The notes beneath the pieces are model-generated. The model saw only the letters and a list, made by a program, of their open reading frames with translations. It did no database searches and was not told the origin of the DNA. This document shows, piece after piece, positions 5,921-27,129 of a stretch of 64,000 nt of DNA (the first letter of the stretch is position 1; every line of letters starts with the position of its first letter). The translations under genes were made by a program, and so were the position numbers. Origin of the DNA: Dokdonella sp. (GTDB lineage: Bacteria; Pseudomonadota; Gammaproteobacteria; Xanthomonadales; Rhodanobacteraceae). Location of the stretch: positions 100,368 to 164,367 of the forward strand of contig NZ_JAHCAQ010000007.1 in assembly GCF_019634845.1 (NCBI RefSeq). Reading direction: 5' to 3'.

Positions 5921-6051
5921 CGCGGGTTTCCTGAACGCGAGCCGGGCAGTGTAACGGCAGCGGCCGCGCGGCTGCGCGGCGCCAGCGCGACTGCACTACG
6001 ATGGCGCGGTGCCCAGGCGCCCGTCAGCGCCATCGACCCGGAGTCCGCCGC

Positions 6052-7564: not shown

Positions 7565-8557
7565 TCAGGACGCCCGTTGCTGCAGGCGACGCTCCCAGGC
7601 CAGCGCCGTGCGCGCAATCTCGTCGAGATCGTCGTGACGCGGCTGCCAACCCAGCAGCGTGCGGATGCGCTGCGCGTCGGCCACCAGCGCCGGAATGTCA
7701 CCCGCGCGGCGCGCCTGCTCGACCACGCGCAGGCGCGCACCGCTGGCGCGCTCCACCGCAGCGATCACCTCGCGCACCGAATAGCCATGCCCGTAGCCGC
7801 AGTTGAGCGTGAGCGAGGCACCGCCGCGCCGCAGGTGCGCCAGCGCGCGCAGATGCGCCGCGGCCAGATCCTCGACGTGGATGAAATCGCGGATGCCGGT
7901 GCCATCGGGCGTCGCGTAGTCGGTGCCGAAGATCGCCAGCGCCTCGCGCTGCCCGGTGGCGACTTCGCAGGCCACCTTGAACAGCAGCGTCGAGCCGCGC
8001 GTGGACAGGCCGATGCGCCCCTGCGGATCGCAGCCGGCGACATTGAAATAGCGCAGGATCACGTGGCGCAGGCTGGCGTTGGCGTCGAGGTCGCGCAGCA
8101 TCCACTCGCTCATGAGCTTGGAGCGGCCGTAGGGACTGATCGGCTCGGTTGGCGTGTCCTCGCTGGCGCGGCCATCGGCGTTGGGCCCGTATACGGCCGC
8201 GGTCGAGGAGAACACGCAGTGCTGCACGCCATGGCGCACGCAGGCCGCGAGCAGGTTGCGCGTGGCGCAGGTGTTGTTGCCGTAGTAGCGCAGCGGATCG
8301 GCCACCGATTCGGGCACCACGGTGCGTGCGGCGAAATGCAGTACGGACTGCACTTGGTGGCGCGGCAACAGATCATCGAGCAGCGCCGCGTCACCGACGT
8401 TGCCGACCACCAGCGGCGCATCGAGCACCGCCTCGCGGAAACCCGTGCTGAGGTCGTCGAGCACCAGCACGGGCAGGCCGGCCTCGCGCAGCTGGCGCAC
8501 CACATGGCTGCCGATGTAACCGGCGCCGCCGGTGACGAGGATCGTGGCTTGCGTCAT
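7565..8557 (-). CDS. galE: UDP-glucose 4-epimerase
   Basis: 330 residues, standard for GalE. The N-terminal NAD-binding motif TGGAGYIGSHVV, the SSTAAVYG block and the YGRSKLMSE motif (catalytic Tyr and Lys of extended SDRs) are present, as is the AGCDPQGRIG substrate loop. It interconverts UDP-glucose and UDP-galactose (or the HexNAc forms), giving nucleotide sugars for glycan synthesis. The ATG at 8557 overlaps the stop of the upstream glycosyltransferase-like gene by the tetranucleotide ATGA. It is the last gene of the PKS/NRPS operon, which ties that operon to sugar chemistry. Confidence 0.95.
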   Translation of the reverse strand: MTQATILVTGGAGYIGSHVVRQLREAGLPVLVLDDLSTGFREAVLDAPLVVGNVGDAALLDDLLPRHQVQSVLHFAARTVVPESVADPLRYYGNNTCATRNLLAACVRHGVQHCVFSSTAAVYGPNADGRASEDTPTEPISPYGRSKLMSEWMLRDLDANASLRHVILRYFNVAGCDPQGRIGLSTRGSTLLFKVACEVATGQREALAIFGTDYATPDGTGIRDFIHVEDLAAAHLRALAHLRRGGASLTLNCGYGHGYSVREVIAAVERASGARLRVVEQARRAGDIPALVADAQRIRTLLGWQPRHDDLDEIARTALAWERRLQQRAS

Positions 8558-10236
8558 GTGCGTTCCTCCGCGATTGCGCGCTGGCGCCAGCGCGCGACGA
8601 GGCGCTTGGCGTCGATGATCTCGACGCCGGCGGCGGCGCTGTAGGTATGGCAGCCGCGCAGGCCATGGCGCCAGTCCGGTTCGATGCGGCCGAGCGCCCG
8701 CTCCGCGTAGTGTTCGGGATCGAGCCGCGTGACTTCGTTGAACACCACGGCGTAGCCGTACTCGACGCTGCAATCCTGCGCCGGCCGGATCAGGCGCCCT
8801 TCGTGCATGAACAACTTGCCGGCCGGTCGCGCGCGCCGCACGTCGCTCAGCAGCGGATTGGCCGGATGCGCACGCCAGGGCCCCAATGGCGTGTCGGCGA
8901 CGAACAGGAACAGATCGGTCCACACGCGGCGGTCGACGTCGAGCGGACTTTCGCTGATGCAGGCGAACAGGTACCAGTGGCGACCATCGTGATGCAGCGT
9001 GCCATCGACCACGTTGCGCCCGCGCACGAGTTCGGCGACCGGCTCCCAACGCGCCGGAAAGTCGAGCGCCCGGTACAGCACGAAGTTGCGTGCCGCCGAT
9101 GATTCCACGCTCAGCCACCACGCATCGTCCCACCGGTACACGAGCGGATACGACAGATGCCAGGCCAGGTCGAGCACGACCTGCGCCTGTTGCGGACGCA
9201 GCGCGGCGTCGAGCTCGGCCACTGCGATGCGACCGCGCCGCGTCGCATGCGGACATTCCTCGACGAACAGCCAGCGGCGCCCGTCATGCTCGACCAGGCT
9301 GGGATCGGCCCAGAAGCGCCCGGCCGGCGTCGCCAGCAACTGCCAGTCGGCGGCCTGCGGCTGCCGCGGGTCGAGCGGCGTGCCACAGCGCGCCGCCAGC
9401 AACCAGTCCTCGGCACGGCCCAGGCGCGGCAGATGACGCCGCGCCGCCCGCCACAGCAGGCGCAGCACGAACCCACCGAGCGCGAGCGCGCCCGGCGCCG
9501 CGAAGGTTGGTGGCGGTGCGGCCGGTGGCGCGTGGCCGCGAGCGAGCTCGCGCAGCAGGCGTGCCAACGTCGCCGGCACGCGCAGCAACTGGCAGGCGCG
9601 GTTGCGTGCGAACGACAACTGCGCGGTGGCGCTGTGGTCGACGCCGAGCCAGCGCCAGTCGGCGCCATCGTGGACCACGATGCCACCGGCGCTGGTGACC
9701 TCGCCGCGCCACAGCGGCGCCAGATGGCGCAGGCCGTGCCCGTGGCCGTCGGTAGCGTCGCGTTCGAAAAACCAGCTCGCGCGCGTGGCGAGCGCAGCGA
9801 GGTCCGCCGCGGCCGGCGGCAGACCGAAGCCGAGCAGCACGTCGGCATCGAGGCCGCGCACCAGCGCGCAGCCTTGGGCGTCGAGCTCGAGCCGGCCCGC
9901 GCGCTCGACCGCCGGCACCGCATGCAGCGGCAGCGCCGGCAGGCGTGTGCGCAGATCCACGCTCGCGGTGGCGCGGCGCGCGCTGCCGGCCAATCGCGCA
10001 TCGAGGCGCAGGAAGGCGGCGAGGGCACCCCGCGGCGCCGCTGCCGGCGGCAGCGGCACCTGCAGCAACGCCACCAGTTCGCAGGCCCCGGTCGTTGTCA
10101 GTGCGGCCAGGGTTTCGGCCAGCCAGGCCGGCACCAGCAGACGATCGAGCAGTACCACCACGCGCAACCGACGGCCGTGCGCAGGCAGGTCCGCGTACAG
10201 TGCAGTGGCCTGGTCGGCGACGCCGGTGGCGGTCAT
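8554..10236 (-). CDS. Glucosamine inositolphosphorylceramide transferase (GINT1)-like protein
   Basis: 560 residues. The first 270 or so have alternating hydrophobic strands (RLRVVVLLD start) that suggest a Rossmann-like, possibly formyltransferase-like domain. From about residue 285 the sequence matches the bacterial family related to the plant GINT1 sugar transferase domain, with propeller-like repeats: WADPSLVEHDGRRWLFVEE (near 307), HLSYPLVYRWDDAWW, NVVDGTLHHDGRHWYLFA and GYAVVFNEVTRL. In plants that domain adds GlcNAc to a glycolipid; the bacterial role is not established. ATGA overlaps link it to the hydrolase upstream and galE downstream. Its place after the PKS/NRPS genes suggests it couples a sugar and the assembly-line product, which is inference. 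Confidence 0.75.
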   Translation of the reverse strand: MTATGVADQATALYADLPAHGRRLRVVVLLDRLLVPAWLAETLAALTTTGACELVALLQVPLPPAAAPRGALAAFLRLDARLAGSARRATASVDLRTRLPALPLHAVPAVERAGRLELDAQGCALVRGLDADVLLGFGLPPAAADLAALATRASWFFERDATDGHGHGLRHLAPLWRGEVTSAGGIVVHDGADWRWLGVDHSATAQLSFARNRACQLLRVPATLARLLRELARGHAPPAAPPPTFAAPGALALGGFVLRLLWRAARRHLPRLGRAEDWLLAARCGTPLDPRQPQAADWQLLATPAGRFWADPSLVEHDGRRWLFVEECPHATRRGRIAVAELDAALRPQQAQVVLDLAWHLSYPLVYRWDDAWWLSVESSAARNFVLYRALDFPARWEPVAELVRGRNVVDGTLHHDGRHWYLFACISESPLDVDRRVWTDLFLFVADTPLGPWRAHPANPLLSDVRRARPAGKLFMHEGRLIRPAQDCSVEYGYAVVFNEVTRLDPEHYAERALGRIEPDWRHGLRGCHTYSAAAGVEIIDAKRLVARWRQRAIAEERT

Positions 10237-11012
10237 GCCAACGCCCGCGCCCAGTCGATGATGGCCTGCTGCAGGCGCTGCCGATCCTCGTGGCGCATGA
10301 ACATGTGGTCGCAGTCGGGCCAGTGGTGCAGGCGCACGCGGGCGCTGCGTGCGCTGGCGCCGTAGGTCGCGGCGAACTGGCGTCGATCGGTGAAATAGGC
10401 AGCGGCGCCGCCGGTGTACAGGGCCAGCAGCGCCACCCCGCGCGCAACGAGTTGCGCCGCCTGCCGGCGCGCCGCGGCCGGGTCGGGCCAGTCGCGCAGG
10501 TCGCGGTCGCCGAGTGCAGCAACATGTCTGCGGCGCAGGCGTCGCCACACGGTCCTGACCGCGCTGCCGCCGCGACCGAGCAGCAGGCGCAACTGGCCAA
10601 GGCGGAACCACGCGCCACGCGCCGCATACGGATCGAGCAGCAGCAGCCCGCACACGCGCGCATCGGTCAGCGCCACCTTCCAGGCCTGGTCGGCCGCGCT
10701 GCACAGGCCGCCGAGCACGAAGCGGCTGGCGCCGCTGATGGCGCACAGGCGGTCCAGGCCCTGCACGAGCACGGCCACGTCGTCGCCACGCTTGGGCGGC
10801 GCATCGCCCACCCCCGGTTGGTCCACGCGCAGCACCGCAATGCCGTCGCGCGCCAGTGCGCGGGCGAGATCGACGTGCAACCGGAACGGTCCGCTGCGCG
10901 GGATGAAACCCGCGTTGAGCAGGATCCACAGCGGGCGCGTGGTCGGCTGTGCGGGCCGCGTCAGGATGCCGGTCAGGCCGCCACCGAGGTCGAGCGGAAC
11001 TTCCTCGATCAT
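10233..11012 (-). CDS. Alpha/beta-hydrolase fold protein, exosortase-A-system hydrolase 1-like
   Basis: 259 residues from ATG 11012, which overlaps the preceding gene as ATGA. The fold is shown by the ILLNAGFIPRSGP oxyanion strand, RVDQPGVGD and a nucleophile elbow read as G-G-L-C-S-A-A with Cys104 in the usual serine place. HHWPDCDHMFMRHE near the C-terminus carries the likely acid/His. The Gly-Leu-Cys elbow is what I recall from exosortase-A-associated hydrolase 1 (TIGR03100). In this operon no thioesterase domain is present, so this protein may release or transfer the chain from the last carrier domain. That role is inferred from context only. Confidence 0.78.
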   Translation of the reverse strand: MIEEVPLDLGGGLTGILTRPAQPTTRPLWILLNAGFIPRSGPFRLHVDLARALARDGIAVLRVDQPGVGDAPPKRGDDVAVLVQGLDRLCAISGASRFVLGGLCSAADQAWKVALTDARVCGLLLLDPYAARGAWFRLGQLRLLLGRGGSAVRTVWRRLRRRHVAALGDRDLRDWPDPAAARRQAAQLVARGVALLALYTGGAAAYFTDRRQFAATYGASARSARVRLHHWPDCDHMFMRHEDRQRLQQAIIDWARALA

Positions 11013-11836
11013 GCCGCCTCCGCGCCCGGCGCGAGTCGCGCCAGGGCCTCGATGCAGGCCGCCACCGGCGGCGTGATGAAGGTCGCGCGCAAATCGATGC
11101 GTTCGTGCCAGGCCGCCGCCGCGGCTGGCAACGCGTGCCACGTGGTGGCGCGCGCGAGTGGCGCGGCGCGCTCATCGTCGACCACATGCACGGGCTCGAC
11201 AGCGGACTCGAGCAGCGCCTCCAGATCCTGCGCCGCGAGTTCGGCGCGCAGCGCGGGCGGGCAGTATGCGGCCAGCAGCCGCTCGGGGTCGCTCGGCCAC
11301 GGCTGCGCGCCGAGGAATGGGTAACGTTGGCGCGAGGCGCGCTCGCGGCGGTCCATCGCGATCAGCTCGTCGAGCCAGACCTGGCCGCGCGGCAAGGGCT
11401 GCCACAACCACAGCGGCAGCCGATGGCAGCGCGCCAGTCGCGCCGCGATCCAGCCACCGGCGCGCGCACCGAGCACGCTGCATGGCAGCGCCGGGGCCCG
11501 GCGCGCGAGTTCGGCCAGCGCAACCTCGGCATCGGCGACCGCGCCGGCGAGCGTGAAGGCGCTTTCCTCGCCCCACGAGTCGCCACTGCCGAAGTAATCG
11601 AAACGCAAGCTGGCGATGCCGCGTTCGGCCAATCGCGCCGCTACCAGCGACAGCAGCCGGTAGCTGAGGAAGTGCTCGTGGAAAAATGGCGGACACAGCA
11701 GCAGCGCGGCACGTGGCACCCCCTGCGCGGGGCGGAACACCGTCGACAGGCGTCGCTGCGGGGCGCCCGCGAACGCGAACTCGTGCAGAGCCTCGCCACC
11801 ACGCGCGGGCGACGTCGACGCAGGCACGGCCGTCAT
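11009..11836 (-). CDS. Alpha/beta-hydrolase fold protein, exosortase-A-system hydrolase 2-like, degenerate elbow
   Basis: 275 residues. LLLCPPFFHEHFLSYRLLS and RFDYFGSGDSWGE match the serine-aminopeptidase-like hydrolases known from exosortase-A loci (TIGR03101 type). The elbow reads G123-A-R125-A-G127: arginine occupies the nucleophile position, so classical serine hydrolysis is unlikely. Related proteins of that family also lack the serine, as far as I recall. It overlaps the megasynthase stop (ATGA at 11833-11836) and the next hydrolase start. Either a non-hydrolytic (acyl-binding or transfer) role or an alternative nucleophile is possible. Confidence 0.78.
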   Translation of the reverse strand: MTAVPASTSPARGGEALHEFAFAGAPQRRLSTVFRPAQGVPRAALLLCPPFFHEHFLSYRLLSLVAARLAERGIASLRFDYFGSGDSWGEESAFTLAGAVADAEVALAELARRAPALPCSVLGARAGGWIAARLARCHRLPLWLWQPLPRGQVWLDELIAMDRRERASRQRYPFLGAQPWPSDPERLLAAYCPPALRAELAAQDLEALLESAVEPVHVVDDERAAPLARATTWHALPAAAAAWHERIDLRATFITPPVAACIEALARLAPGAEAA

Positions 11837-14800
11837 CCGGTGCGCCTCGCGCCGATCCAGCCGCGCAGGCGCGACAGCCAGCCGCCGCGCAGCGTCGCCG
11901 ACTCCTGCGGCAGCGCCGTCGCGATGCTGGCCAGCGTACCGGTGGCGATCGCCAGCACGTTGAGGCGCGTGCCGGTCTCGCGTTCCACGCGCGCGAGCAT
12001 GTCGACCGCCAGCAGCGAATCGCCACCGAGGTCGAAGAAGTTGTCGTCGGCCTGCACCGCGGCGACACCGATCAGCTCGCACCACAGCGCGGCAAGATAG
12101 GTCTCGCGCGCGTCGACCACGGCAGCGGCCGGCGCGGCGGCCGGCGCGGCCTGCTCGGCTGGTGGCGGCAAGGCCTTACGGTCGATCTTGCCGTTGGGCG
12201 TCGTCGGCATCGATTCGACGACGACGATGTGACTGGGGCGCATGTAGGCCGGCAAGGTGTCGCGCAGGCGCTCGCGCAGGCGCGTGGCGAGGTCGCCGAA
12301 GCGGTCGCGCGCGGTCACGTACAGCACGAGCCGCTGGTCGTGCGGGCCGAACTCGCGCACCGCCGCGGCGGCCTCGCGCACGAGCGGATCTTCGTGCGCG
12401 GCGGCCTCGATGTCGCCAAGCTCGACGCGAAAGCCGCGGACCTTGACCTGGTCGTCGATGCGGCCATGGAACTGCAGCACGCCGTCGCGCAGGCTGCCGG
12501 CATCCCCGGTGCGGTACATGCGGCTGCCGTCGGCCGCGAACGGGTCGGCGCGGAAACGCTCGGCCGTTAGGTCGGGGCGGTTGAGGTAACCGTCGGCGAC
12601 ACCGTCGCCGCCGATCCAGATCTCGCCGCGCTCGCCGGGCGCGACCGCCTGCCCCGCGGCATCGAGCACATGGATGCGGGTGTTGGCGATCGGCCGCCCC
12701 AACGGCACCGGATCCTCGTCGGCGACGACACGATGCAGCGTCGACCAGATCGTGGTCTCGGTGGGACCGTACATGTTCCACAACTGGCGGCAATGCGGCA
12801 GCACGAGACTGGCCAGGTCACGCGGCATCGCCTCGCCGCCGACCAGCAGCCGCAGGCCGGCCACCGCCTCGCCCGCGTCACCCTCGCACAGCAGCCGCAG
12901 CAGGGTCGGCGTGGTCTGCAGCACGCTGGCGCCGCAGTCCTTGAACAGCGCTCGCGCCTGCTGCGGATCGCGCACCTGCGCCTCGCTGGCGATGTGCACG
13001 CGCGCGCCGCAGATCAGCGGCAGGTACAGCTCCAGCCCGGCGATGTCGAACGACAGCGTGGTCACCGCGCAGATCACATCGTCGGCGTCGAAGCCCGGCT
13101 GCTCGCGCATCGAGCACAGGAAATTGACGAGATTGCGGTGCAGGATGCGCACCCCCTTGGGTTCGCCGGTCGAGCCCGACGTGAACAGCACGTAGGCGAG
13201 ATCGGCGCCACTCACGGCCGGCAGCGGCGTCACCGCCGCGGCCCGGCGCAGCTCGCCGTCGCCGAACGCGACCAGCGCGATGCCGGGTCCACTCACCGCA
13301 TCCGGTACGGCTTCGCCGTCGAGCACCACCACGTGCCGCAACGCGGCACGCTCGGCCATGAGCTGCAGGCGCTTGGCGGGGAACGCCGCGTCGAGCGGCA
13401 CGTAGGCTGCACCGGCGCGCAGGATCCCGAGCGCTGCCGCCAGCATCGCGCAGCGCCGCGGCATGCAGATGCCGACCAGCTCGCCGCGGCCCACGCCACT
13501 GGCGAGAAGTCGCGCCGCCACCTGCGCGCTGGCATGCCACAACTGCGCGTAGCTGTAGCTTGCGCCCGCATCCGATACCGCAATGCGGTCGGGCGTGGCC
13601 TGCACCTGCGCCGCGATCAGATCGAGCAGCGAACCGGTGTCCGGCCGCGGCGCCGGTGCCGCTGGCGTGGCCGTGGCGACGGCCGCTGCCGGCAGCACAT
13701 GCGTTGGGGTTTGCATGGCGACCTCCTCGAGCAGGCGCTCGTACTGGGCGATCCAGCGCTGGATCGTCGCCGTTTGATACAACGCGGTCCGGTAGTGCAG
13801 ATCCAGCGTGAGCTGGCGACCGTCGTCATTGAGGTTGAAGAACAGGTTCCACAACAGCGCCACGTGCGGGCAATCGCGCCAGCGCGTGACCAGCCCACTG
13901 AACTGCGGCGCGCGCACGCGCGGATTGAGATTGAAGATCACATCGGCCAGCGCGCCACGCGCGCCACGCCGGCGCAGCGCGCGCGCGCGCACGATCGTCA
14001 GCAGGCTGAGGTCCTGATGCTCGGCGGCATCGAGCAACGCGGCCTGGGCACCGGCCACGGCCGCGTCGATGCCATCGTGCGCCGCGATGCGCAGCCGCAG
14101 CGGCAGCGTGTTGACGCCATCGCCGATCAACGCGCCGCTGCCGGCCAGCGCCTGCCCCGCGAACGGCACGGCCACCGCGAAGTCGCGCTGGCCCGACAGG
14201 CGCGCGAGGAACAGGCCGAAGGCGCCCAGCAGCAGACCGTACAGGGTCACCCCGCGACGCCTGGCCTGTGCGCGCAACGCGGTGCTCAGCTCGACGCCGA
14301 ACTCGTGGCGTTCGGTGGCGGCGTCGAAGTCGCTGTCGGCGCCCGCGGTCAGGGTCGGGTCGGCCGGCAGATCCAGTGGCGCCGGCAGCTCGGCGTACAG
14401 CGCATTCCACCAGGCCAACTGCGCCGCGCCATTGCCGGCGCGCCGGGCATGCTCGGCCAGCGCGTAGGCGCGCAGGCTCTGCGCGGCCGGCAGTTGCGCC
14501 GCGTGGCCGGCGTGCGCGGCGTTGTAGCCAACCTGCAGTTCCTCGCACAGCACCGCCAGCGACCAGCCATCGAGAATGAGGTGATGGCCGATCACATGCA
14601 GGGCATGGCGTTGCGCGCCCAACCGCAGCAATGCAAAACGCAGCAGCGGCGCTTGCGTGAGATCGAACGGCGTGCGCATCTCGCGCTCGCACCAGTCCGC
14701 CAGCGCGCTCTGCGCATCAGCGCCGGCGAGATCGACCTCGCGCAGCGGCAACGGCGGCAATGCCTGCAGCACCAGGCTGCGCCCGTTGGCCGAGATGGCA

Positions 14801-17800
14801 CAGCGGAACGCCTCGTGACGCTGCCACAGGTTGCGCAGCGCATCCTCGAGTGCGGAACGATCGAGCGTGCCGTCGAATTCGAGCAGCACCGCTTCGTTGC
14901 AGGCCAGCGCGGCGCTCGGCCCGTACTGGCAACCGAGCCATTTCTCGAGCTGGCCGTCGGTCAGCGCCACCGTCTCGGGCAGCGTGGTTGCTGCCGCTGC
15001 AGGCGCGCTGGCCGCTGCCGGCAACGCCGGCGGCGCCGCACGTGGCCGCAGCAGCCCGGCCGCGAGCAACTCGTCGAGTGCGGCGCGCACCGCCTCGTGG
15101 ATGCGCTCGACCTCGACCGCGCCGTGGGCCTCGGTGAGGAAGCAATTGAACTGTTCGTACAGGTGCAGGCCGTGCCCACGCAGCGCATACCAGAACAGGC
15201 TCGCGCACGGTTGGTCCTCGTCGGCGACGATGCGCCACAACGAACTGCAGCCCACCGCCGTGAGTGGCGCTGCGCGTTGCTCGAACAATGCGTTGAGACG
15301 CGCCACGAGTTCGCCGCTGCGCGCGTTGAGCGTTTCCTGCAGTGCCGGCCCGCTGCGCTTGAGGTGCAGCAGCGCGGCGCGCGCCGCCGCCAGCGCCAAC
15401 GGATGCCGCACGAAGGTGCCGGCGAAATAGGTGACACCGGCTTCGGGCACCGAGTCGTCGCCAAAGTGCCAGTCGCCGCCGTCGAGCGCATCGAGCCAGT
15501 GCGCGCTGCCGGCGATCGCCGCCAGCGGCAGACCGCCGCCGATGATCTTGCCGTAGGTGGCGATGTCGGCCCGCACGCCATAGAACGCCTGCGCGCCGCC
15601 CTGGGCCAAGCGGAATCCGGTGATGACCTCGTCGAAGATCAGCGCACAGCCGGCCTCGTCGCAGATCGCGCGCAAGGCCTGCACGAAGGCGCGTGGCTGC
15701 AGCGTCGGGTTCCTGCCCTGCACCGGCTCGATCATGATCGCGGCCAGCTCGTGGCCGCGCTCGCGCAGCACCTGGAGCGCGGCATCGCTGCCATAGTCGA
15801 GCACGAGCACGTTCTCGACCGCGCTGGCAAGGATGCCCGGCGCCGCCGCGATCGAACGCAGGCTGCGCGTGCCGCGCACGATCACCTCGTCGAAGATGCC
15901 GTGGTAGGAATTGGTGAAGATCGCGATCGTGCGGCGCCCGGTCACGGTGCGCGCAATGCGCATCGCGCCCATCACCGCTTCGGATCCGGTATTGCAGAAC
16001 GCCACGCGCGCCATGCCGGTCATCTCGGCGATGAGCGCCGCCACTTCGGCGGTGAGTGGATGCTGCGGCCCGATCTCGTAGCCGGCGTCGATCTGCTGAT
16101 GCAGCGCGGCCGCCACGGCGCTGGGCTGGTAGCCGAGGAAATTGGCCCCGAACGCATTGAGGCAGTCGACGTACTGATTGCCGTCGAGGTCGTACAGGTA
16201 CGCGCCTTGCGAGCGCTCGACGACGATCGGATAGACGAGCTCCTTCCACAGCGGGTTGAAGCCGGTCACCACGCGCGGATCGGCCATGCACGCGCGGTTG
16301 TGCTCGGCGAACGCCTTCGAACGCGCCGTGCGCGCGTTGTAGCGCTGCGTGAAGTCGTCGATCCAGGCGTGCTGCGCCGGCGTCAGGGCCAGCTCGCGCT
16401 GGCGCGTGATGCGCGCACTGGCGCCGAACGGGCGCGCACCAAGATCGGCCGGCAGCGCGTCGGCGCCGGCTGCCGGGGGCGGCGCGGTGGCGACCGCGGG
16501 CGTGGCCACGCTCGGCGACGGTGCTGCCACGGCGGGCGCGGCAGCGCCGGCCAGCCGTGCCAGCAACTGCATCTGCTGCTGCATGAGCGCCTGCTGGCTG
16601 CGCAGCAGATCGAGCAGGTCGGCGGGCGCGGTGGCGGTGGCGGTGGTCGCAGACGGCGCCGCAATGGGTGTCGGAGTTGGCGTCGGCATTGCTGCCGGCG
16701 CCAGCGCGGCCACGACCGGCTGTGGCCGCGTCGAGGCAATGAAGCCAGCGAGACTGGCAATGCTGTCGAGGTCCTCCAGCAGGCGCCGGAATTTGAGCTT
16801 GACGCCATGCTGGCGCTCGAGTTCGAGCGCGGCCTGGGTCAGCGACAGCGAATCGAGCCCGAGCTCGAGGAAACTGTTGGTGTCATGGCTGGCGTCGATG
16901 CGCTCGCCCGTCAGCGACTCGACCAGCGCACGCAGTTGCACGCGCAGCGCGGCATCGGCGGCCGCCGGCGCGACCGTGTCGGCGGTCGTGTCGGCGGTCG
17001 CGGTCGTGGTCACGGGAGCTGCGGGTGTGGGCTGGACTTCGTTCATGCTGACTTCCTCTGTCGCACCGCGCACGGGCAACGGTGGGTCGATCCAATGGCG
17101 CTGGCCGCCGAACGGATAGGTTGGCAAACCGATGCGGCGACGGCCCTGGCCGGCGTAGCGCAGGCTCCAGTCGGGCGTGGCACCGGCCACCCAGCAGGCA
17201 CCCAGCGCGGCGGCAAAATGTTCGGCGTCGCTGCCGGGTTTGGCGGCCGGGCCGAGTGTGGCCACGGCCTGCGCGTCGCCGCCGAGCTGGCTGCGCACGA
17301 AGCTGGTCAATGCGTGCGAGGGCCCGGCCTCGATGAACAGGCTGACACCGTCGGCCGTCGCCGCGGCGATGGCGCTGGCAAACTGCACCGGCTGACGCAG
17401 CTGGCGGCACCAGTAGGCGACGCTGGTCGCCTCCTGCGCGGTGATCGGCGCGCCGCTGACGCAGGAATGGAACGGCCGCGTCGGCGCCGCCAGCGACAGG
17501 CCGGCGAACGCACGCTCGAACGGCTCCAGCGCGCCTGCCATCAGCGCGCTGTGGAAGGCATGGCTGACCTTGAGCCGCGTGCTGGCGACATGCTGCGCGG
17601 TGAGCCGCTGCGCGAGGTCGTCGATGGCGGCGCCAGTGCCCGCCACCACGCACAGTTCGGGCGCATTGTGCGCGGCAAGGTCGAGTCCGGCGCCGAGCTG
17701 CGCGGCGATCGCGGCCGGCGCCGCGCGCACCGCCAGCATCGCACCGGTCGGCTGCGCCTGCATCGCGGCGCCGCGCGCACACACGAGCATCACGGCCTGT

Positions 17801-19701
17801 TCGAGCGTGAACACGCCGGCCAGCGTGGCCGCGACGTACTCGCCACTGCTGTGACCGATGAGGACATCGGCGACGATGCCGCAGCTTTCCCACAGCCGCG
17901 CCAATGCGTATTCGACTGCAAACAACGCCGGCTGGGTGTAGCGCGTCTGTGCCAGGCGCTCGGCGGCAGCGGTCGCCTGCGCAGGCGGCGGCAGGATCAG
18001 GGCGCGCAGGTCGCAGCCCAGGTGCGGACCGGCCAGCGCACAGCAGCGCTCGAACTCGGCCGCGAACACCGGTTCGGTCGCCACCAGTTCGCGTGCCATG
18101 TCGACATGCTGCGAGCCCTGACCCGGGAACAGCAGCGCGATCTTGCGGTGACGCGCGGTCTGCGGCGCGAGCTGCGCCAGCGCGCTGGCCGCCTGCGCGG
18201 CATCACGCGCGACTACGGCGCCGCGCACCGCCAGCTCGCGGCGGCCGAGTGCAAGCGTGGCGGCGATGTCGGGCAGCTGCGCCTCGCTGGCGTGTTCCAG
18301 ATGCTGCGCGAGTTGCTGCGCCCGGCGTTGCAGGGCGGCTTCATCGTGCGCCGACAGCAGCAGCAGCTCGACGCCGCGCCCCGCCGCCGCGGGCGGCGCC
18401 GGTGGTGCTTCCTCGAGCACGACGTGCGCATTGGTGCCGCCGATGCCGAACGAACTCACGCCGGCGCGGCGCGGCGTGGCGCCGCGCGGCCAGGCCACCG
18501 CCTCGCGCGCAAGCCGGAACGGTGAATGGGCAAAGTCGATCTGCGGATTGGGTTGCTCGAGGTTGATCGATGGCGGGATGCGCTCGTGATACAGGGCCAG
18601 CGTCGCCTTGATGAGGCCGGCCACACCCGACGCCGCGACGAGATGACCCAGGTTGCCCTTGAGCGAACCGAGCCAGCAGGTCGCCGCTGCTGCGCCGTCG
18701 CCGCGGAAGGCACGCGTCAACGCCTCCACTTCGATCGGATCGCCCAGCAGGGTGCCGGTGCCATGCGCCTCGACGTAGCCGATCGCGCCGGCATCGAGAC
18801 CGGCGCAGTCGAGCGCGAGCCGGATGGCAGCGCTTTGCCCGCGCACGCTCGGCGCGCTGAAACTGGCCTTGTCCGCGCCATCGTTGTTGACGCCCACGCC
18901 GCGGATCACCGCGTAGATCGTGTCGCCTTGCGCCAGCGCATCGGCCAGGCGCTTGAGCACGACCACGCCTGCCCCCGAGGAGAACACGGTGCCGCTGGCG
19001 TCGGCGGCGAATGGTCGGCAATGGCCGTCAGCCGACTCGATCGCGCCTTCGGCCGGCAGATAGCCCGACTCCTGCGGCACCACGAGGTTGACGCCGCCGG
19101 CCAGCGCCACGTCGCACTGCCAGCTCATGAGTCCGTACCAGGCCTGCGCCACCGCCACCAGCGAGGTCGAACAGGCCGTGTACAGGCTGATCGCCGGCCC
19201 GGTGAGGCCGAGCCGGTGCGCGACGCGAGTGGCGACGTAGTCCTTCTCGTTGGCGAGCATCGCGGCGAATTCGCCGCTGGCGGCGATGACTTCGGGATGC
19301 TCGTCGATGAGCTTGCGATAACCGTTGTTGGACGTACCGGCCCAGACGCCGATGCTGCCCTCGCTGCGCGCCGGGTCGATGCCGGCGTGTTCGAGCGCGC
19401 TCCAGCACAGCTCGAGGAAGATGCGTTGCTGTGGGTCGATCAGTTGCGCCTCGCGCGCGGGGATCCCGAACAGCGCGGCGTCGAAACGCGCGGCATCGGC
19501 GATGATGCCGCGGGCGGCCACGTAGCGCGGGTGCTCGCGCAGCTCGCGCGGCACGCGCGGCGACAGCTCGTCCGCTGCGAACCGCGTGATCGCTTCGCGA
19601 CCCGCGAGCAGGTTCGCCCACAGCTCGTCGACGCTGGCCGCGCCGGGAAAGCGGCCGGCCATGCCGACGATCGCAATGCCATCCTGCGCGGGCTCGTTCA
19701 T
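11833..19701 (-). CDS. Hybrid PKS-NRPS megasynthase KS-AT-ACP-AMT-C-A-PCP
   Basis: 2622 residues in one frame. The KS has C177, H313 and H353. The AT has GHSSGE with S618 and the malonyl-type HAFH at 714-717. The ACP carries LGLDSLSL with S951. A class-III PLP aminotransferase follows, with K1385 in TYGKIIGGG. The C domain has HHLILDG (H1706-H1707...D1711), and the A domain contains FTSGSTGEPKG, NMYGPTETT and GRIDDQVKVRGF. The PCP has LGGDSLLA with S2562. A-domain pocket residues read D-I-L-Q-L-G-M-I-W-K, close to published glycine codes. The AMT inside a PKS module is the arrangement of MycA/ItuA and cyanobacterial McyE, which make beta-amino acyl chains. No KR, DH, TE or reductase domain is present. 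ATGA overlaps join both neighbours. Confidence 0.95.
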   Translation of the reverse strand: MNEPAQDGIAIVGMAGRFPGAASVDELWANLLAGREAITRFAADELSPRVPRELREHPRYVAARGIIADAARFDAALFGIPAREAQLIDPQQRIFLELCWSALEHAGIDPARSEGSIGVWAGTSNNGYRKLIDEHPEVIAASGEFAAMLANEKDYVATRVAHRLGLTGPAISLYTACSTSLVAVAQAWYGLMSWQCDVALAGGVNLVVPQESGYLPAEGAIESADGHCRPFAADASGTVFSSGAGVVVLKRLADALAQGDTIYAVIRGVGVNNDGADKASFSAPSVRGQSAAIRLALDCAGLDAGAIGYVEAHGTGTLLGDPIEVEALTRAFRGDGAAAATCWLGSLKGNLGHLVAASGVAGLIKATLALYHERIPPSINLEQPNPQIDFAHSPFRLAREAVAWPRGATPRRAGVSSFGIGGTNAHVVLEEAPPAPPAAAGRGVELLLLSAHDEAALQRRAQQLAQHLEHASEAQLPDIAATLALGRRELAVRGAVVARDAAQAASALAQLAPQTARHRKIALLFPGQGSQHVDMARELVATEPVFAAEFERCCALAGPHLGCDLRALILPPPAQATAAAERLAQTRYTQPALFAVEYALARLWESCGIVADVLIGHSSGEYVAATLAGVFTLEQAVMLVCARGAAMQAQPTGAMLAVRAAPAAIAAQLGAGLDLAAHNAPELCVVAGTGAAIDDLAQRLTAQHVASTRLKVSHAFHSALMAGALEPFERAFAGLSLAAPTRPFHSCVSGAPITAQEATSVAYWCRQLRQPVQFASAIAAATADGVSLFIEAGPSHALTSFVRSQLGGDAQAVATLGPAAKPGSDAEHFAAALGACWVAGATPDWSLRYAGQGRRRIGLPTYPFGGQRHWIDPPLPVRGATEEVSMNEVQPTPAAPVTTTATADTTADTVAPAAADAALRVQLRALVESLTGERIDASHDTNSFLELGLDSLSLTQAALELERQHGVKLKFRRLLEDLDSIASLAGFIASTRPQPVVAALAPAAMPTPTPTPIAAPSATTATATAPADLLDLLRSQQALMQQQMQLLARLAGAAAPAVAAPSPSVATPAVATAPPPAAGADALPADLGARPFGASARITRQRELALTPAQHAWIDDFTQRYNARTARSKAFAEHNRACMADPRVVTGFNPLWKELVYPIVVERSQGAYLYDLDGNQYVDCLNAFGANFLGYQPSAVAAALHQQIDAGYEIGPQHPLTAEVAALIAEMTGMARVAFCNTGSEAVMGAMRIARTVTGRRTIAIFTNSYHGIFDEVIVRGTRSLRSIAAAPGILASAVENVLVLDYGSDAALQVLRERGHELAAIMIEPVQGRNPTLQPRAFVQALRAICDEAGCALIFDEVITGFRLAQGGAQAFYGVRADIATYGKIIGGGLPLAAIAGSAHWLDALDGGDWHFGDDSVPEAGVTYFAGTFVRHPLALAAARAALLHLKRSGPALQETLNARSGELVARLNALFEQRAAPLTAVGCSSLWRIVADEDQPCASLFWYALRGHGLHLYEQFNCFLTEAHGAVEVERIHEAVRAALDELLAAGLLRPRAAPPALPAAASAPAAAATTLPETVALTDGQLEKWLGCQYGPSAALACNEAVLLEFDGTLDRSALEDALRNLWQRHEAFRCAISANGRSLVLQALPPLPLREVDLAGADAQSALADWCEREMRTPFDLTQAPLLRFALLRLGAQRHALHVIGHHLILDGWSLAVLCEELQVGYNAAHAGHAAQLPAAQSLRAYALAEHARRAGNGAAQLAWWNALYAELPAPLDLPADPTLTAGADSDFDAATERHEFGVELSTALRAQARRRGVTLYGLLLGAFGLFLARLSGQRDFAVAVPFAGQALAGSGALIGDGVNTLPLRLRIAAHDGIDAAVAGAQAALLDAAEHQDLSLLTIVRARALRRRGARGALADVIFNLNPRVRAPQFSGLVTRWRDCPHVALLWNLFFNLNDDGRQLTLDLHYRTALYQTATIQRWIAQYERLLEEVAMQTPTHVLPAAAVATATPAAPAPRPDTGSLLDLIAAQVQATPDRIAVSDAGASYSYAQLWHASAQVAARLLASGVGRGELVGICMPRRCAMLAAALGILRAGAAYVPLDAAFPAKRLQLMAERAALRHVVVLDGEAVPDAVSGPGIALVAFGDGELRRAAAVTPLPAVSGADLAYVLFTSGSTGEPKGVRILHRNLVNFLCSMREQPGFDADDVICAVTTLSFDIAGLELYLPLICGARVHIASEAQVRDPQQARALFKDCGASVLQTTPTLLRLLCEGDAGEAVAGLRLLVGGEAMPRDLASLVLPHCRQLWNMYGPTETTIWSTLHRVVADEDPVPLGRPIANTRIHVLDAAGQAVAPGERGEIWIGGDGVADGYLNRPDLTAERFRADPFAADGSRMYRTGDAGSLRDGVLQFHGRIDDQVKVRGFRVELGDIEAAAHEDPLVREAAAAVREFGPHDQRLVLYVTARDRFGDLATRLRERLRDTLPAYMRPSHIVVVESMPTTPNGKIDRKALPPPAEQAAPAAAPAAAVVDARETYLAALWCELIGVAAVQADDNFFDLGGDSLLAVDMLARVERETGTRLNVLAIATGTLASIATALPQESATLRGGWLSRLRGWIGARRTG

Positions 19702-21548
19702 CGTCCACCTCCGCTGCGGGCGCCGAAACGGGTGAACGCGGCGCGCCGCGCGGCCGCACGGGCCGGGTCGGCCTCGCTGCCGCCCGCGGCCGCTGCCGGC
19801 GCCGCCAGCACGGCCGCCTGCGCCGCGATCGTCGGATGTTCGTAGATCTGTGCCGCGCCAAGTACGTGACCGTGCCGGCGCAGTTCGGTCAGCGCGGCGA
19901 CCACGAGCAGCGAACGCGCACCGTGGTCGAACAGGTTGGCGTGCACGTCGAGCCGCGCCACCCCGAGCAGGTGTTGCCACAGTTCGCGCAACTGCTCCAC
20001 CAGCGGCGCGTCCTCGCGCCATTGCAGCGGCTCGGTCGCGCTTGTCGCGGCGAGTGCGCGGCGATCGACCTTGCCGCTGGCCGTGAGCGGCAGCGCGGCG
20101 TGCATGAGTACCGCCTGCGGCACGAGGTAGGCGGCCAGGCTGGCGGCACAGTGTGCCTGCAGCGCGAGAGCGAGCGCGTGCGGATCGGCGTGGGCATCGC
20201 GCGCCACCACGTGCGCGACGAGGCGCCGCCCGGCCGGTGCGTCGCAGGCCACCACCACGGCGGCGGCCACCGCATCGTGGTCGGCCAGCACGGCCTCGAC
20301 CTCGGCCGGCTCGATGCGGAAGCCGTCGATCTTGATCTGGTCGTCGAGCCGTCCCAGGCAATCGAGCACGCCGCCGCCGACATCGCGCACGCGATCGCCG
20401 CTGCGATACCAGCGCGTGCCATCGAGCAGGATGAAGCGCTCGGCGGTGAGCTCGGGGCGGTGGATGTAACCGGCGGCCAGACAGGCGCCGCCAAGCAGCA
20501 GCTCGCCTTCCGCGCCGGCAGCCACCTCGACCAGCGCGGCATCGACGATGCGCGTGCGCACGTGCGGCAGCGCGCGGCCGATCGGCGGCGCCGCCGGCCA
20601 CTGCGCGGGATCGCCGTCGAGCTCGTGGGCGGTCACGACATGGGTTTCGGTCGGACCATAATGGTTGTGCAGCACGGCGCCCGGCAATGCCACGAACAGC
20701 GCGCGGATCGCCGGCGTGACGTGCAAGGGTTCACCGGCGGTGATGATGTCGCGCAGCGCGGCCGGCAGCACGCCGCCAGCGGCTACGGCCTCGGCCAGCG
20801 CCTGCAGCGCGACATGCGGCACGAACAGGCGTTCGATGCGCTCGCGCGCCAGCAGCGCCAGCAGCGCGTAGGGATCGCGCCGCTCGGCGTCGCTCGGCAA
20901 CACGAGGCAGCCGCCTGCGGCAAGCGTGGTGAAAATTTCCTGGAACGAGACGTCGAAACCGAGCGGCGCGAACTGCAGCGTGCGGGCGCCGTGGCCCAGA
21001 CGCGGATGCTGCAGGTGCCAGGCCAACAGCCCGGCCAGCGCGGCGCTGCGCATGGCCACGCCCTTGGGCCGGCCGGTCGAACCCGAGGTGAACAGCACAT
21101 AGGCCAGTTCGCCCGCCGTCAGCTCCGGCACGACCGCGACCGTGATGGCCGCGGCCGGCTCGATGCGTGCGATGCCGGTCGGCGCCTGCGCGGTGGCGCT
21201 GGCGTAAAAGCAGCGCGGCGCCGCATCGTCGAGCATCGCGGCGAGCCGCGCCGGGGGAAAGTCCAGATCGAGCGGCAGATAGGCCGCGCCGCAGGCGATG
21301 CAGGCGAGCATGGCAGCGATGGTTTCGATCGCGCGCTCGGCCGGCAGCGCCACCACGTCACCACACTGCACTCCGGCGGCGCGCAGCGCAGCCGTATGCG
21401 CCGCGACGCGCGCGAGCAGTTGCGCGTGACTGAGCTGCAACTCGCCCGCACGCAGCGCCGGCGCGCTCGAACCGGCCTGCGCCAACCACGGCGCAAGCAG
21501 GCTGTCGGCGCCGCCCGGGCGTGGCGGCAAGACGCTGGCAACGCCCAT
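19698..21548 (-). CDS. NRPS adenylation-carrier protein (A-PCP), predicted proline loading module
   Basis: 616 residues from ATG 21548, chosen for the GGAG six bases upstream; in-frame ATGs at 21560 and 21572 lack such a site. Core motifs: LFTSGSTGRPKGVAM, FDVSFQEIF, HNHYGPTETH, RSGDRV, GRLDDQIKIDGFR and ASGKVDRRAL. Pocket residues read by eye against GrsA are D-V-Q-F-I-A-H-V-V-K, which matches the published proline pattern. The carrier domain has an unusual core, DHGARSLL, in place of DLGGHSLL, with S546 as the likely phosphopantetheine site. It has no C domain, so it should prime the KS of the next protein. The stop overlaps that start (ATGA at 19698-19701). Confidence 0.92.
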   Translation of the reverse strand: MGVASVLPPRPGGADSLLAPWLAQAGSSAPALRAGELQLSHAQLLARVAAHTAALRAAGVQCGDVVALPAERAIETIAAMLACIACGAAYLPLDLDFPPARLAAMLDDAAPRCFYASATAQAPTGIARIEPAAAITVAVVPELTAGELAYVLFTSGSTGRPKGVAMRSAALAGLLAWHLQHPRLGHGARTLQFAPLGFDVSFQEIFTTLAAGGCLVLPSDAERRDPYALLALLARERIERLFVPHVALQALAEAVAAGGVLPAALRDIITAGEPLHVTPAIRALFVALPGAVLHNHYGPTETHVVTAHELDGDPAQWPAAPPIGRALPHVRTRIVDAALVEVAAGAEGELLLGGACLAAGYIHRPELTAERFILLDGTRWYRSGDRVRDVGGGVLDCLGRLDDQIKIDGFRIEPAEVEAVLADHDAVAAAVVVACDAPAGRRLVAHVVARDAHADPHALALALQAHCAASLAAYLVPQAVLMHAALPLTASGKVDRRALAATSATEPLQWREDAPLVEQLRELWQHLLGVARLDVHANLFDHGARSLLVVAALTELRRHGHVLGAAQIYEHPTIAAQAAVLAAPAAAAGGSEADPARAAARRAAFTRFGARSGGGR

Positions 21549-21734
21549 CACACGCTCCATCGCAACGGACATGCAGTGCGTCGCGGCAACCGCATGGCAG
21601 CGCAGCCGATCACTGCGCAGCGACCAATCGCCTGCGCGGCCACCACGCGGCCGTGCCGCGCGCGCGCAGCCCGATCGTTGCTCATGGCCATGGTCATCGT
21701 CGCTGGCTGCATCGCGATTGATCCGGTATTTGCC

Positions 21735-22661
21735 TCAATGCACACGCGGCACGCCCCAATCGGCGCCGCGGTTGGCGCCGAAGCGTTCGGTCACGCCGAA
21801 CAGCGGACCGAGCGCCGCGAGGTAGGCGCCAAGCCAGCCTGCACGGGCCCGGTGCCCCTTGCGGCGCTCCTCGGCGACCACGTCGCGGGTGAACTCGCGC
21901 CAGTTGCTCGCTTCGAGCTGGTCGAAGGCGACCGTGATATTCATGTTGATGCAACGCGTGATGTGCCATACGCCACACGGCACGAAGGCGGCGTCGCCGG
22001 CCTCGAGCACGACGCTGTGACGGCGCGCCTGCTGCAGCGACGGCCAGCGCTCGCGGTCATTGACGTCGTCCATGCGCGACATCCATGGCATCTGCGGATG
22101 CACGTAGAGCAGGTCTTCCTGACCGGGTTCGTAGAACGTGAACTCCTTGGCGCCGTACACCTGCGCGATCCAGGTGTGCATGTGGAGCATGTCGTAGTGC
22201 AGGTACGGAAAGCCGCTGCCGGGGCCGCCAAAGAAGATCTCGAGGTGGTTGACGAGATCGAACACGCCCTTTGGCATCAACGGACTGGTGTGGCGATTGG
22301 GCTGGCCGCAGGCCAGCCGCGGGCCGAGGTCGGGGAGCAGATCGCTGCAATCGGCCAGCGTGCAGGGGTATGGCGCCGGATGCTCGGCGTCGGAACGCAG
22401 TTGCTGGCCGACGATGTCGCCCAGCCGGTACGGGCGGCCGCGCACGCGCACGGTTCGGTCGGCGTGGTGCTCGAGGAAGAATTCCGGCGTGAAGCGATGA
22501 CGCGCCGGCCAGGCTGCGAGTGCGCCGCGCACCACCACCGGCCGTCGCGGCAGCAGGTAGCGGGCGCGAAACCGCGCCGGTTCCACCTGTTCGACCTCGT
22601 CGACCCAGCCATCGCGATCGGTCGCAATCTCGTCGTTGGCCATTGCTGCCGCGATCCTCAT
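21735..22661 (-). CDS. Cupin_8 (JmjC-like) Fe(II)/2-oxoglutarate oxygenase
   Basis: 308 residues from ATG 22661 with GAGG seven bases upstream. The facial triad is visible as H155-x-D157 in YLHYDMLHMH and H233 in VPCGVWHITRCINMN. RRPVVVRGALAAWPA near the N-terminus is the typical cupin_8 opening. Such enzymes hydroxylate amino acid side chains, free or carrier-bound, using O2 and 2-oxoglutarate. It is the first gene of the minus-strand PKS/NRPS block but is separated from the A-PCP gene by about 185 bases, unlike the other overlapped junctions. Hydroxylation of the prolyl or glycyl unit, or of the finished product, is a reasonable guess. Confidence 0.85.
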   Translation of the reverse strand: MRIAAAMANDEIATDRDGWVDEVEQVEPARFRARYLLPRRPVVVRGALAAWPARHRFTPEFFLEHHADRTVRVRGRPYRLGDIVGQQLRSDAEHPAPYPCTLADCSDLLPDLGPRLACGQPNRHTSPLMPKGVFDLVNHLEIFFGGPGSGFPYLHYDMLHMHTWIAQVYGAKEFTFYEPGQEDLLYVHPQMPWMSRMDDVNDRERWPSLQQARRHSVVLEAGDAAFVPCGVWHITRCINMNITVAFDQLEASNWREFTRDVVAEERRKGHRARAGWLGAYLAALGPLFGVTERFGANRGADWGVPRVH

Positions 22662-22939
22662 GACTTCGCCTCTTGCGCGCGCCGTATCGATGGGCGACCG
22701 GCGCGCGAACCGCCACACCGCTGTGGTGGCACCGCCGGCGCACCTTGCGCCACCAGCAAAACGTGACGCAGTTCACAGTTTAGCGCCGCTTGCCACTGCG
22801 TGACGAGGGTGGGCGCATCAAGGGGGCGGTGCGTTCACGCGGCGGCGGCGCGACGTAGAATCGGCCAGACACCGGTGCGGGCGCGGCATTGCGGCGCCGG
22901 TTTGGGGTGCACCGCAGACGCGGATCCAGCGAGGGCGAC
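22662..22939. promoter_or_regulatory. Divergent intergenic region upstream of the PKS/NRPS block and the J-domain gene
   Basis: 278 bases between two divergent starts. The most AT-rich spot is near 22759-22783 (AAAACGTGACGCAGTTCACA and following TTTAG), where a minus-strand promoter could lie, with TAAACT as a possible -10. No clean -35/-10 pair or operator repeat is seen. It is proposed as the control region of the biosynthetic operon by position only. Confidence 0.35.
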
Positions 22940-23605
22940 GTGGCCACCAAGGCCGATTTCATGGCGTTGTACCAACAGCTCGGGCTGGCTCCAGGCTGTT
23001 CGCTGGACGAGCTCAAGGCCGCCTATCGACGCCGCGTTGCCGAATTGCACCCCGATCGCCACGGCGTGAGCGCCGATGCCGGCGACGCACTGCGGCTGTC
23101 CGAACTGACGGTGGCCTACAACGCCGCCAACCAGTTCCACCGTCGCTACGGGCGCCTGCCGGGCGCCGCCCACCTGGCGCCAACCACGCCCTTGCCGCGC
23201 GCAACCGCGACGCCATGGGCCGCCGGCATCGAAGCGCAGGCTGGGAAGCGCGCACGGCGCTGGCCTTGGCTGCTGCTGACGGTGGCGCTGGGGTGGGGTC
23301 TGTGGGCCGGCGGCCTGTTCGATACCGGTCAGGATGATGCTGCTGGCACCGCGCCAGCGCCCGCCGATGCCGGCCTGCCGAGCCCTGCCGTTGCCGCGAC
23401 CGGCGGCCTCATCCTGCTCGGCAGCGACGCGACCACGGTGCGCGCGCTGCAGGGCCGGCCACTGATGGAAAGCGTGGAGCGCTGGGACTACGGACCTTCG
23501 TGGATCGCCTTCAGCGACGGCAAGGTCGTGGACTGGTACAGCTCGCCGCTGCGCCCGCTCAAGGTGGCCAGCGCACATCCACCGCCGACGCGACCGGCGC
23601 ACTGA
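22940..23605 (+). CDS. J-domain protein with one membrane helix
   Basis: 221 residues from GTG 22940 (AGGG just upstream); TTG 22889 and ATG 22961 are alternatives. The N-terminal 60 residues are a DnaJ-type J domain with the HPD motif (LHPDRHG). A hydrophobic helix follows around residues 108-126 (WPWLLLTVALGWGLWAGG). The C-terminal segment carries LLGSDATTVRALQGRP and WDYGPSWIAFSDGKV, a compact domain of unknown function. J domains stimulate DnaK-type ATPases; this one would act at the membrane. It is divergent from the oxygenase gene and convergent, with only 6 bases between, with the sugar transferase. Confidence 0.8.
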   Translation: MATKADFMALYQQLGLAPGCSLDELKAAYRRRVAELHPDRHGVSADAGDALRLSELTVAYNAANQFHRRYGRLPGAAHLAPTTPLPRATATPWAAGIEAQAGKRARRWPWLLLTVALGWGLWAGGLFDTGQDDAAGTAPAPADAGLPSPAVAATGGLILLGSDATTVRALQGRPLMESVERWDYGPSWIAFSDGKVVDWYSSPLRPLKVASAHPPPTRPAH

Positions 23606-25030: not shown

Positions 25031-25300
25031 CGTGTTGGCCTCCGTGAACACCGGGCCTCGGTAACGCGCGTCCATCAACTTGATTCCTTCAGTCGAATCC
25101 GCCTCGTGACCGGGCCGGTGGCGACGACGGCGTGCCGGCGGCTCTTCGCTGGCGCATTGCGCCACGTGCGCGCACTGGGGCCGGCGTGATCGGTTGTCTT
25201 CACCCGTCACTCAGCCGCCGTGGGTTTATCATCTTGGCAGTGCCCGGCCGTGTCGGCAAGGACGCAGCCGCCCCACCCGCTCCCCTGCAAGGATCACCCC

Positions 25301-27129
<1,829 letters not shown>

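Follow-up and report, generated by a model that had tools for sequence, protein, structure and literature searches.

The 64,000-nt stretch of Dokdonella sp. contig NZ_JAHCAQ010000007.1 analysed here (the window) carries, on its minus strand from position 22661 to 7565, a seven-gene operon in which a hybrid polyketide synthase-non-ribosomal peptide synthetase (PKS-NRPS) is followed by two hydrolase-fold proteins and glycan genes, within an exopolysaccharide (EPS) locus. The host genome is a 3.26 Mb draft, 90.24% complete. The proteins of the window were scanned against Pfam at E 0.001 and against NCBIfam, where scores were compared with the curated cut-offs. All seven genes listed by a first-pass annotation of this DNA were found, on the minus strand, at the positions it gave and with complete reading frames. 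The Pfam matches also follow the order it described, namely Cupin_8; AMP-binding, AMP-binding_C and PP-binding; ketoacyl-synt, Acyl_transf_1, PP-binding, Aminotran_3, Condensation, AMP-binding and PP-binding; two weak alpha/beta hydrolases; GINT1_N; and an epimerase. From the gene for the adenylation-peptidyl carrier protein (A-PCP) module through galE, each gene overlaps the next by 4 bp (five junctions, from the start and stop positions), and the cupin gene is set apart from the A-PCP gene by 162 bp; as read from the DNA, the genes from A-PCP to galE are a translationally coupled operon. Other genomes, also of other genera, contain the same gene set at high identity, and we therefore do not regard the operon as a chance arrangement. 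The cupin_8 gene is present in two copies in the loci of Dokdonella fugitiva (L027 and L028; here and below, L numbers denote loci or stretches of our comparison set and G numbers its genomes) and was not seen in many other loci. A promoter and terminator scan gave no promoter-like site for the strand of the operon, and terminator-like sites were no more numerous than in shuffled sequence.

The central protein joins ketosynthase (KS), acyltransferase (AT), acyl carrier protein (ACP), class-III aminotransferase (AMT), condensation (C), A and PCP domains in one chain, and is thus a hybrid type I PKS-NRPS with an in-line beta-aminotransferase. Its catalytic motifs, as read in the translation, are intact: TACSTS in the KS, GHSSG and HAFH in the AT, GLDSL in the ACP, the AMT lysine in ATYGKIIGG, HHLILDG in the C domain and GGDSL in the PCP; we take HAFH to mark a malonyl-type AT. 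The condensation domain is the sole one found in the genome, which encodes an Sfp-like phosphopantetheinyl transferase of 216 aa elsewhere, and no thioesterase or reductase domain is among the 11 Pfam families matched by the protein at E 0.001. The solved structure nearest to the AMT domain is the aminotransferase of mycosubtilin synthase (6kfm, 9.4e-115), in line with the beta-amination that had been proposed for this operon. Specificity codes were extracted from alignments with the second A domain of the window, with the last residue of the loading-module code read by eye. By the code-to-substrate table, the loading code presumably stands for Pro and the terminal code for Gly, which agrees with the two building blocks named earlier. 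Searches against PDB sequences, tried as a substrate test for both A domains, left the specificity undecided. The predicted product is 3-amino-3-(pyrrolidin-2-yl)propanoyl-glycine, to which the cupin_8 protein perhaps adds a hydroxyl group.

Table 1. Genes of the operon, in transcription order, and surrounding features of the window
Feature	Position	Strand	Evidence
cupin_8/JmjC-type putative Fe(II)/2-oxoglutarate oxygenase, accessory tailoring	21735..22661	-	PF13621 8.9e-21; JMJD5-like in PDB search, 7.6e-15
A-PCP loading module, code DVQFIAHV(V)	19698..21572	-	PF00501, PF13193, PF00550
KS-AT-ACP-AMT-C-A-PCP protein, 2622 aa, terminal A code DILQLGMIW	11833..19701	-	Pfam domain order
HydA, alpha/beta-hydrolase fold, TIGR03101-like, Arg125 at nucleophile position (pseudo-hydrolase)	11009..11836	-	profiles, alignments
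HydB, alpha/beta-hydrolase fold, TIGR03100-like, Cys104 at nucleophile elbow, His236 invariant in alignments	10233..11012	-	profiles, alignments
GINT1_N-domain protein	8554..10236	-	PF24793 5.7e-33
galE, UDP-hexose 4-epimerase	7565..8557	-	TIGR01179, 425.2 bits vs cut-off 262.3
EPS priming glycosyl-phosphate transferase TIGR03013 (EpsB_2), 950 bp upstream of the operon, co-directional	23612..25030	-	557.5 bits vs cut-off 393.35
3' end of TIGR03108-like AsnB amidotransferase	1..670	+	scored as fragment, below cut-off
Wzy/O-ligase-like, TIGR03097-like	674..1987	+	below cut-off
MurJ/Wzx-type flippase	1984..3549	+	217 bits vs cut-off 235.55
two paralogues, 462 and 507 aa, apparent signal peptides by eye	3742..5130, 6001..7524	+	no Pfam/NCBIfam match
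J-domain-like open reading frame (by eye), between priming transferase and operon, opposite strand	22889..23605	+	no NCBIfam match
glmS, adjoins EPS priming transferase	25220..27133	+	

HydA and HydB had been described as the same two hydrolases that accompany exosortase-A polysaccharide loci (TIGR03101 and TIGR03100). This holds insofar as the pairs are related and share the same Cys/Arg signature; the window proteins, however, score far below the curated cut-offs (65.7 vs 168.45 for TIGR03100 and 54.2 vs 202.75 for TIGR03101), and HydB belongs to a sister subfamily. In a HydB tree, a 100/100 branch separates the window row from 20 rows whose loci were found with TIGR03101 (14 of them from loci over its cut-off), and these scores together with the tree rule out true membership in the two families. 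The tree omitted rows shorter than 215 residues, duplicate loci and rows without a G-x-C motif; its label 'lys' wrongly took in L171-L175 and L196, which belong to other families of the class, and its label 'xrt' wrongly took in L170. L170 and L188 denote one and the same NRPS locus.

The signature itself is constant. Cys stands at the HydB nucleophile position in 82/82 rows and Arg at that of HydA in 97/97, after identical rows and rows with fewer than 120 aligned residues were dropped and presumed cross-hits to the partner were set aside (8 Arg rows of the 90 for the HydB model, 11 Cys rows of the 108 for the HydA model). The His of the HydB model is present in 81 of 90 rows, the remaining nine having a gap, and hydA lies directly 5' of hydB in 117 of 131 HydB rows, duplicates counted. 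In other Gammaproteobacteria we found carrier protein-HydA fusions in one frame, followed by hydB (L190:9455-13411, L192:9739-15396, L193:9547-12225 and L194:9443-12034). An apparent HydA-HydB fusion of 561 aa runs to the end of a 5.9-kb contig (L195:4200-5885), with a second hydA-hydB pair adjoining it. Given the fusions of both kinds, the pair appears to sit where a thioesterase would be.

The glycan genes reported on both sides of the operon, polysaccharide genes at 1-3549 and a priming sugar transferase, are indeed there. Further members of the locus lie at the left edge of the window and upstream on the contig. A TviB-type UDP-N-acetylhexosamine (UDP-HexNAc) 6-dehydrogenase and the XrtA chain-length protein TIGR03007 (364.6 bits vs 278.85) are over cut-off there, and an epimerase of the TviC/GalE kind is also present. 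Below cut-off are a tyrosine-autokinase-like protein, an outer-membrane protein of the TIGR03016 kind, a polysaccharide-deacetylase-like protein, several glycosyltransferases and two AsnB-type amidotransferases, one protein reaching 277.6 bits against TIGR03108 and a fragment of the other 459.8 (cut-off 816.9). The A-domain proteins score 182.1 and 213.7 against the acyl-CoA ligase family TIGR03098, whose cut-off is 592.35. By this gene content the setting is an XrtA-like EPS locus; a genuine exosortase-A system was rejected, as a search of the 90.24%-complete draft genome for the exosortase TIGR02602 gave 0 matches at E 0.001. The two paralogues between the flippase gene and galE recur beside the operon in relatives, with several copies in L030 and L058, and are possibly targets or users of the polymer.

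The sixth gene had been called a GINT1-like transferase, a name that we do not retain. Its protein clearly contains the N-terminal domain PF24793 (114.7 bits vs 27), and its match to GINT1 is confined to this propeller family; no GT64 transferase domain was found by Pfam at E 0.001, and the propeller reaches the C-terminus. The C-terminal half is a five-bladed propeller like those of GH130 and GH43, and the N-terminal half is weakly formyltransferase-like; in an alignment of the formyltransferase catalytic columns, the Asn column holds no conserved residue and His is present in 11 of 45 rows. With PF24793 and a weakly formyltransferase-like half as its only features, the protein was rejected as a GT64 transferase, and we take it as the glycan-side partner.

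A first probe of 398 genomes of the order Lysobacterales with this gene found relatives in 23, TIGR03013 being over cut-off in 20 of these; among named genomes, the loci nearest to that of the window are in two Dokdonella fugitiva strains and one Dokdonella metagenome-assembled genome. A KS lies in the fetched neighbourhoods of 19 of the 23. The contig of G246 ends after hydA-hydB-GINT1_N, and the three weakest matches (G168 on a 9.5-kb contig, G331 and G397) showed no assembly line. Ten further genomes, chosen rather than drawn at random, were positive for TIGR03013 and negative for GINT1_N: the assembly line lies beside the priming transferase in six and not in four. The GINT1_N gene was thereby ruled out as a marker of the system, and because of these six genomes the probe was switched to HydB.

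HydB was found in 98 of the 398 genomes, TIGR03013 in 122, and both in 95 of the 98. These HydB matches are at E 2.3e-34 or better, five weak ones (G044, G079, G093, G113 and G248, E 1e-12 to 1e-14) being left out; the count may include genuine TIGR03100-type matches, and two members of the HydB profile came from TIGR03101-type loci. The two genes share a contig in 87 genomes, in 81 of which they lie within 60 kb. The first-pass annotation would have given up the glycan link had homologous operons never occurred near glycan genes, and we saw the opposite. The dependence is one-sided: TIGR03013 occurs without HydB in 27 genomes, the reverse in three. Of the 35 genomes among the 98 whose HydB/EPS loci were inspected, 34 have NRPS A domains within or next to the locus, and 31 have a KS; the exceptions for the KS are G126, where the stretch ends after the AMT, G357 and G239, where none was shown, and G246, a 4-kb contig also without NRPS. 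In five genomes (G140, G295, G314, G237 and G125) a distance of 37-57 kb on one contig separates hydA-hydB-galE from the priming transferase, and the first three have Wzy-like matches in this interval. In L217, L220, L223, L224 and L227 galE directly follows hydB. Named carriers include Lysobacter, Luteimonas, Pseudoxanthomonas and Silanimonas. Judged from gene content and position, the coupling of this PKS-NRPS family to the EPS locus is well supported across the order.

The two ends of the assembly line behave differently across the order. The loading modules of the window and its nearest relatives carry the Pro code, and other starter codes are Val-like (DALW-GGTF), Thr-like (DFWN-GMVH) and Ser-like (DVWH-SLVD). 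In contrast, wherever a complete terminal A domain lies directly before hydA, its code is DILQ-G--W (Gly), in 19 of 19 genomes. The starters of these 19 are Pro-like in ten (in G311 from a partial code), Thr-like in five, Val-like in one, Ser-like in one and not read in two; codes are missing where the A domain leaves the fetched stretch or the match is short. Since the Gly end is constant while the starters differ, the constant end should be the one by which the product is attached. Thirteen of these 19 genomes, that of the window among them, have an AMT domain.

The genes, their domain order, the active-site residues, the Cys/Arg pair, the coupling to EPS genes, the variable starter and the mostly constant Gly end are facts of the sequence. 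We propose, with a probability of about 50%, that the operon is an acyl-group factory dedicated to the EPS, whose PKS-NRPS product is passed by HydA and HydB to an EPS sugar, and we infer that the acyl group is attached to the EPS covalently. The A-PCP module would load Pro, as its code suggests, and KS-AT would add one malonyl C2 unit to give a beta-keto thioester, which the AMT would turn into a beta-amine; the resulting 3,4-diamino acid would here be 3-amino-3-(pyrrolidin-2-yl)propanoyl, to which C-A-PCP would add Gly, again judging by the code. The Cys of HydB would accept the glycyl thioester in place of a thioesterase, with HydA, an Arg pseudo-hydrolase, docking or assisting, and HydB might then acylate a cytoplasmic EPS sugar precursor at an amine or hydroxyl. 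Sugar-side work would fall to the GINT1_N protein and GalE; hydroxylation of the acyl group may be the task of the cupin oxygenase, and the decorated polymer would probably be exported via the EPS flippase and polymerase. We count the UDP-HexNAc 6-dehydrogenase and the polysaccharide-deacetylase-like protein of the locus in favour of this proposal.

Several observations weigh against it. Gene neighbourhood can also reflect co-regulation, and the co-occurrence of HydB with TIGR03013 (Fisher p 2e-62) is not corrected for shared ancestry. Many of the loci are without GINT1_N. The solved A domain nearest to the loading module in the PDB sequence search is the second module of LgrA, presumably Gly-specific, with prolyl ligases lower. 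Six of the 19 genomes gave no AMT match, and the beta-amine is therefore not universal. Of 17 stretches ahead of hydA that were checked for an A domain, 13 gave no complete one (full in the window, L074 and L234, partial in L226; not complete in L202, L203, L206, L231, L232, L233, L235, L236, L061, L107, L123, L073 and L076). Nine of these 13 are from genomes of the order and the other four are named loci; the last complete upstream A domain has a Gly code in eight of the nine genomes and is unreadable in G239. Where the terminal module has no recognisable complete A domain, its last carrier protein must be loaded in another way. In genomes that have hydAB apart from the assembly line, the final code that could be read is Gly for G022, G295, G314 and G237 and non-Gly for G140 and G125 (DIMQVGGVY; in G140 an unclear code follows).

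Related loci outside the order add to these points. Twenty stretches (19 genomes) were picked from 274 genomes by high score or long frame, and the settings of the outside loci were judged from one or two flanking proteins per locus. NRPS-HydAB genes lie in polysaccharide loci in L188 and L191, and beside non-glycan genes in L190 (PEPCK), L192 (RapA), L193 and L194. Because some of these loci adjoin unrelated genes, HydAB has no general tie to glycans, and a purely glycan-bound device was ruled out. As for the A domain that precedes HydA, L189, L190 and L192 show the Gly code, and L191, L193, L194 and L177 a non-Gly one.

These outside loci lend some weight to the main rival, somewhat unlikely in our judgement, in which HydB is an ordinary trans-acting Cys thioesterase and the operon makes a small free diamino-acyl-glycine (a signal, chelator or antibiotic) alongside the EPS. 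Trans-acting thioesterases are common, and the vicinal diamine of such a product might bind metal. However, no exporter, receptor, regulator or resistance gene is among the seven genes (the Pfam and NCBIfam scans gave no transporter, regulator or resistance gene there), the dependence on the EPS locus within the order is strong (95/98), and the product would be very small, its start variable and its Gly end largely fixed.

Clearly less probable is a target other than the EPS chain, such as a lipid, an outer-membrane protein, or only the undecaprenyl-linked first sugar, where the acyl group would serve as a cap or anchor. The operon does lie beside the priming transferase in many loci, and the two recurrent paralogues at 3742-5130 and 6001-7524 could be such targets; the seven genes, however, include no protein- or lipid-type acyltransferase, and no exosortase was found in the genome.

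It is quite improbable that HydB belongs with the TrdC/NcmC-type Dieckmann cyclases (Cys-Asp-His), with an acyl tetramic acid as the released product. The fold class and the Cys nucleophile are the same, and clusters without an AMT should yield a beta-ketoacyl-Gly thioester, a suitable substrate. The AMT should remove the beta-ketone, and the substrate would therefore be intact solely in the six AMT-less genomes, whereas the AMT-bearing majority keeps the same HydA-HydB pair. No Dieckmann cyclase was among the 50 matches listed in a HydB fold look-up, a result uninformative either way. We consider least probable of all a reverse amide ligation, in which an AsnB-type amidotransferase would join the amine of the free product to an EPS uronic-acid carboxyl: two TIGR03108-like AsnB proteins (below cut-off) and the UDP-HexNAc 6-dehydrogenase are in the locus, but the Gly end and the HydA-HydB pair would go unexplained, and asnB-like genes also adjoin GINT1_N genes where no NRPS match was seen (L112, L126 and L132).

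Among known systems, the XrtA/exosortase-A EPS loci, which carry a TIGR03098 ligase, a carrier protein and the TIGR03100/TIGR03101 pair, resemble the window in having TIGR03013 and TIGR03007 over cut-off and a homologous Cys/Arg pair. They differ in that no exosortase was found in the window's genome, a PKS-NRPS replaces the ligase, and HydB forms a separate sister clade. The mycosubtilin/iturin PKS-NRPS (MycA) shares with the window its closest AMT among solved structures and reportedly has the same order KS-AT-ACP-AMT-C-A-PCP. Its starter is said to be a fatty acid, whereas that of the window is an amino acid brought in via A-PCP, and the window system has few modules, no thioesterase domain and an EPS locus around it. 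Some O-antigens carry N-acylglycyl or aminoacyl amino sugars, such as acetylglycyl-viosamine, and the end result proposed here, an acyl-glycine fixed to a polymer sugar, is alike; to our knowledge, acyl groups of that kind in O-antigens are not made by modular PKS-NRPS. The plant GINT1 (GT64) shares the propeller family PF24793, while the window protein is without the GT64 domain and has the propeller fused to a weakly formyltransferase-like half.

For the offloading step, CmaE and SyrC, which are said to have an alpha/beta-hydrolase fold with a Cys nucleophile, offer a possible likeness. These transferases are described as moving carrier-bound aminoacyl groups (PMC8748450, PMC10956176). They act between carrier proteins, whereas HydB has an Arg pseudo-hydrolase as a partner. 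The TrdC and NcmC Dieckmann cyclases are described as Cys-Asp-His alpha/beta hydrolases acting at PKS-NRPS ends (PMC10956176); in contrast, AMT-bearing clusters should leave no beta-ketone, and the device of the window consists of two proteins.

Tentatively, and with less confidence than in the EPS-dedicated factory itself, we suggest that these loci represent a new class of glycoconjugate, a peptidyl-polyketide-decorated EPS, in which a Lysobacterales PKS-NRPS within the EPS locus works with a two-protein offloading device and a constant Gly link, and the outer residue is varied by species like a serotype. The same device, working with a ligase and a carrier protein, might explain the hydrolase pair of exosortase-A loci; the NCBIfam labels of the two families say merely 'exosortase A system-associated hydrolase 1/2', and the Cys/Arg pair offers a concrete function. 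We found no description of this arrangement or of a HydB/HydA offloading device in the open-licence papers searched, which is weak evidence of novelty. If the proposal is true, NRPS/PKS chemistry helps to build a structural surface polymer across a bacterial order and is not confined to free secondary metabolites, and loci of this kind may have been recorded as plain 'NRPS/PKS' clusters. A table on Luteibacter mycovicinus, for instance, lists a 'Type I PKS/NRPS' cluster without further study, a possible example by that listing alone (PMC11165876). The variable start and constant Gly end would predict species-specific surface tags for phages, hosts and neighbours.

Some of the comparison loci deserve a separate mention. 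In L177 (9174-13756) a genuine TIGR03101/TIGR03100 pair, over both cut-offs, lies directly behind a C-A-PCP protein, and this locus is a possible bridge between the exosortase-A loci and the NRPS-linked kind. An EctB-like diaminobutyrate aminotransferase adjoins the A-PCP-HydA fusion and hydB in L193 (12233-13555, with a family match) and L194 (12077-13345), and L193 also has a GTP_EFTU-family gene beside the fusion and hydB. Finally, in Pseudoxanthomonas-type loci (L078, L082, L086, L099, L033, L037 and L039) an extra C-A-PCP module lies downstream of the GINT1_N gene, past hydA-hydB-GINT1_N.

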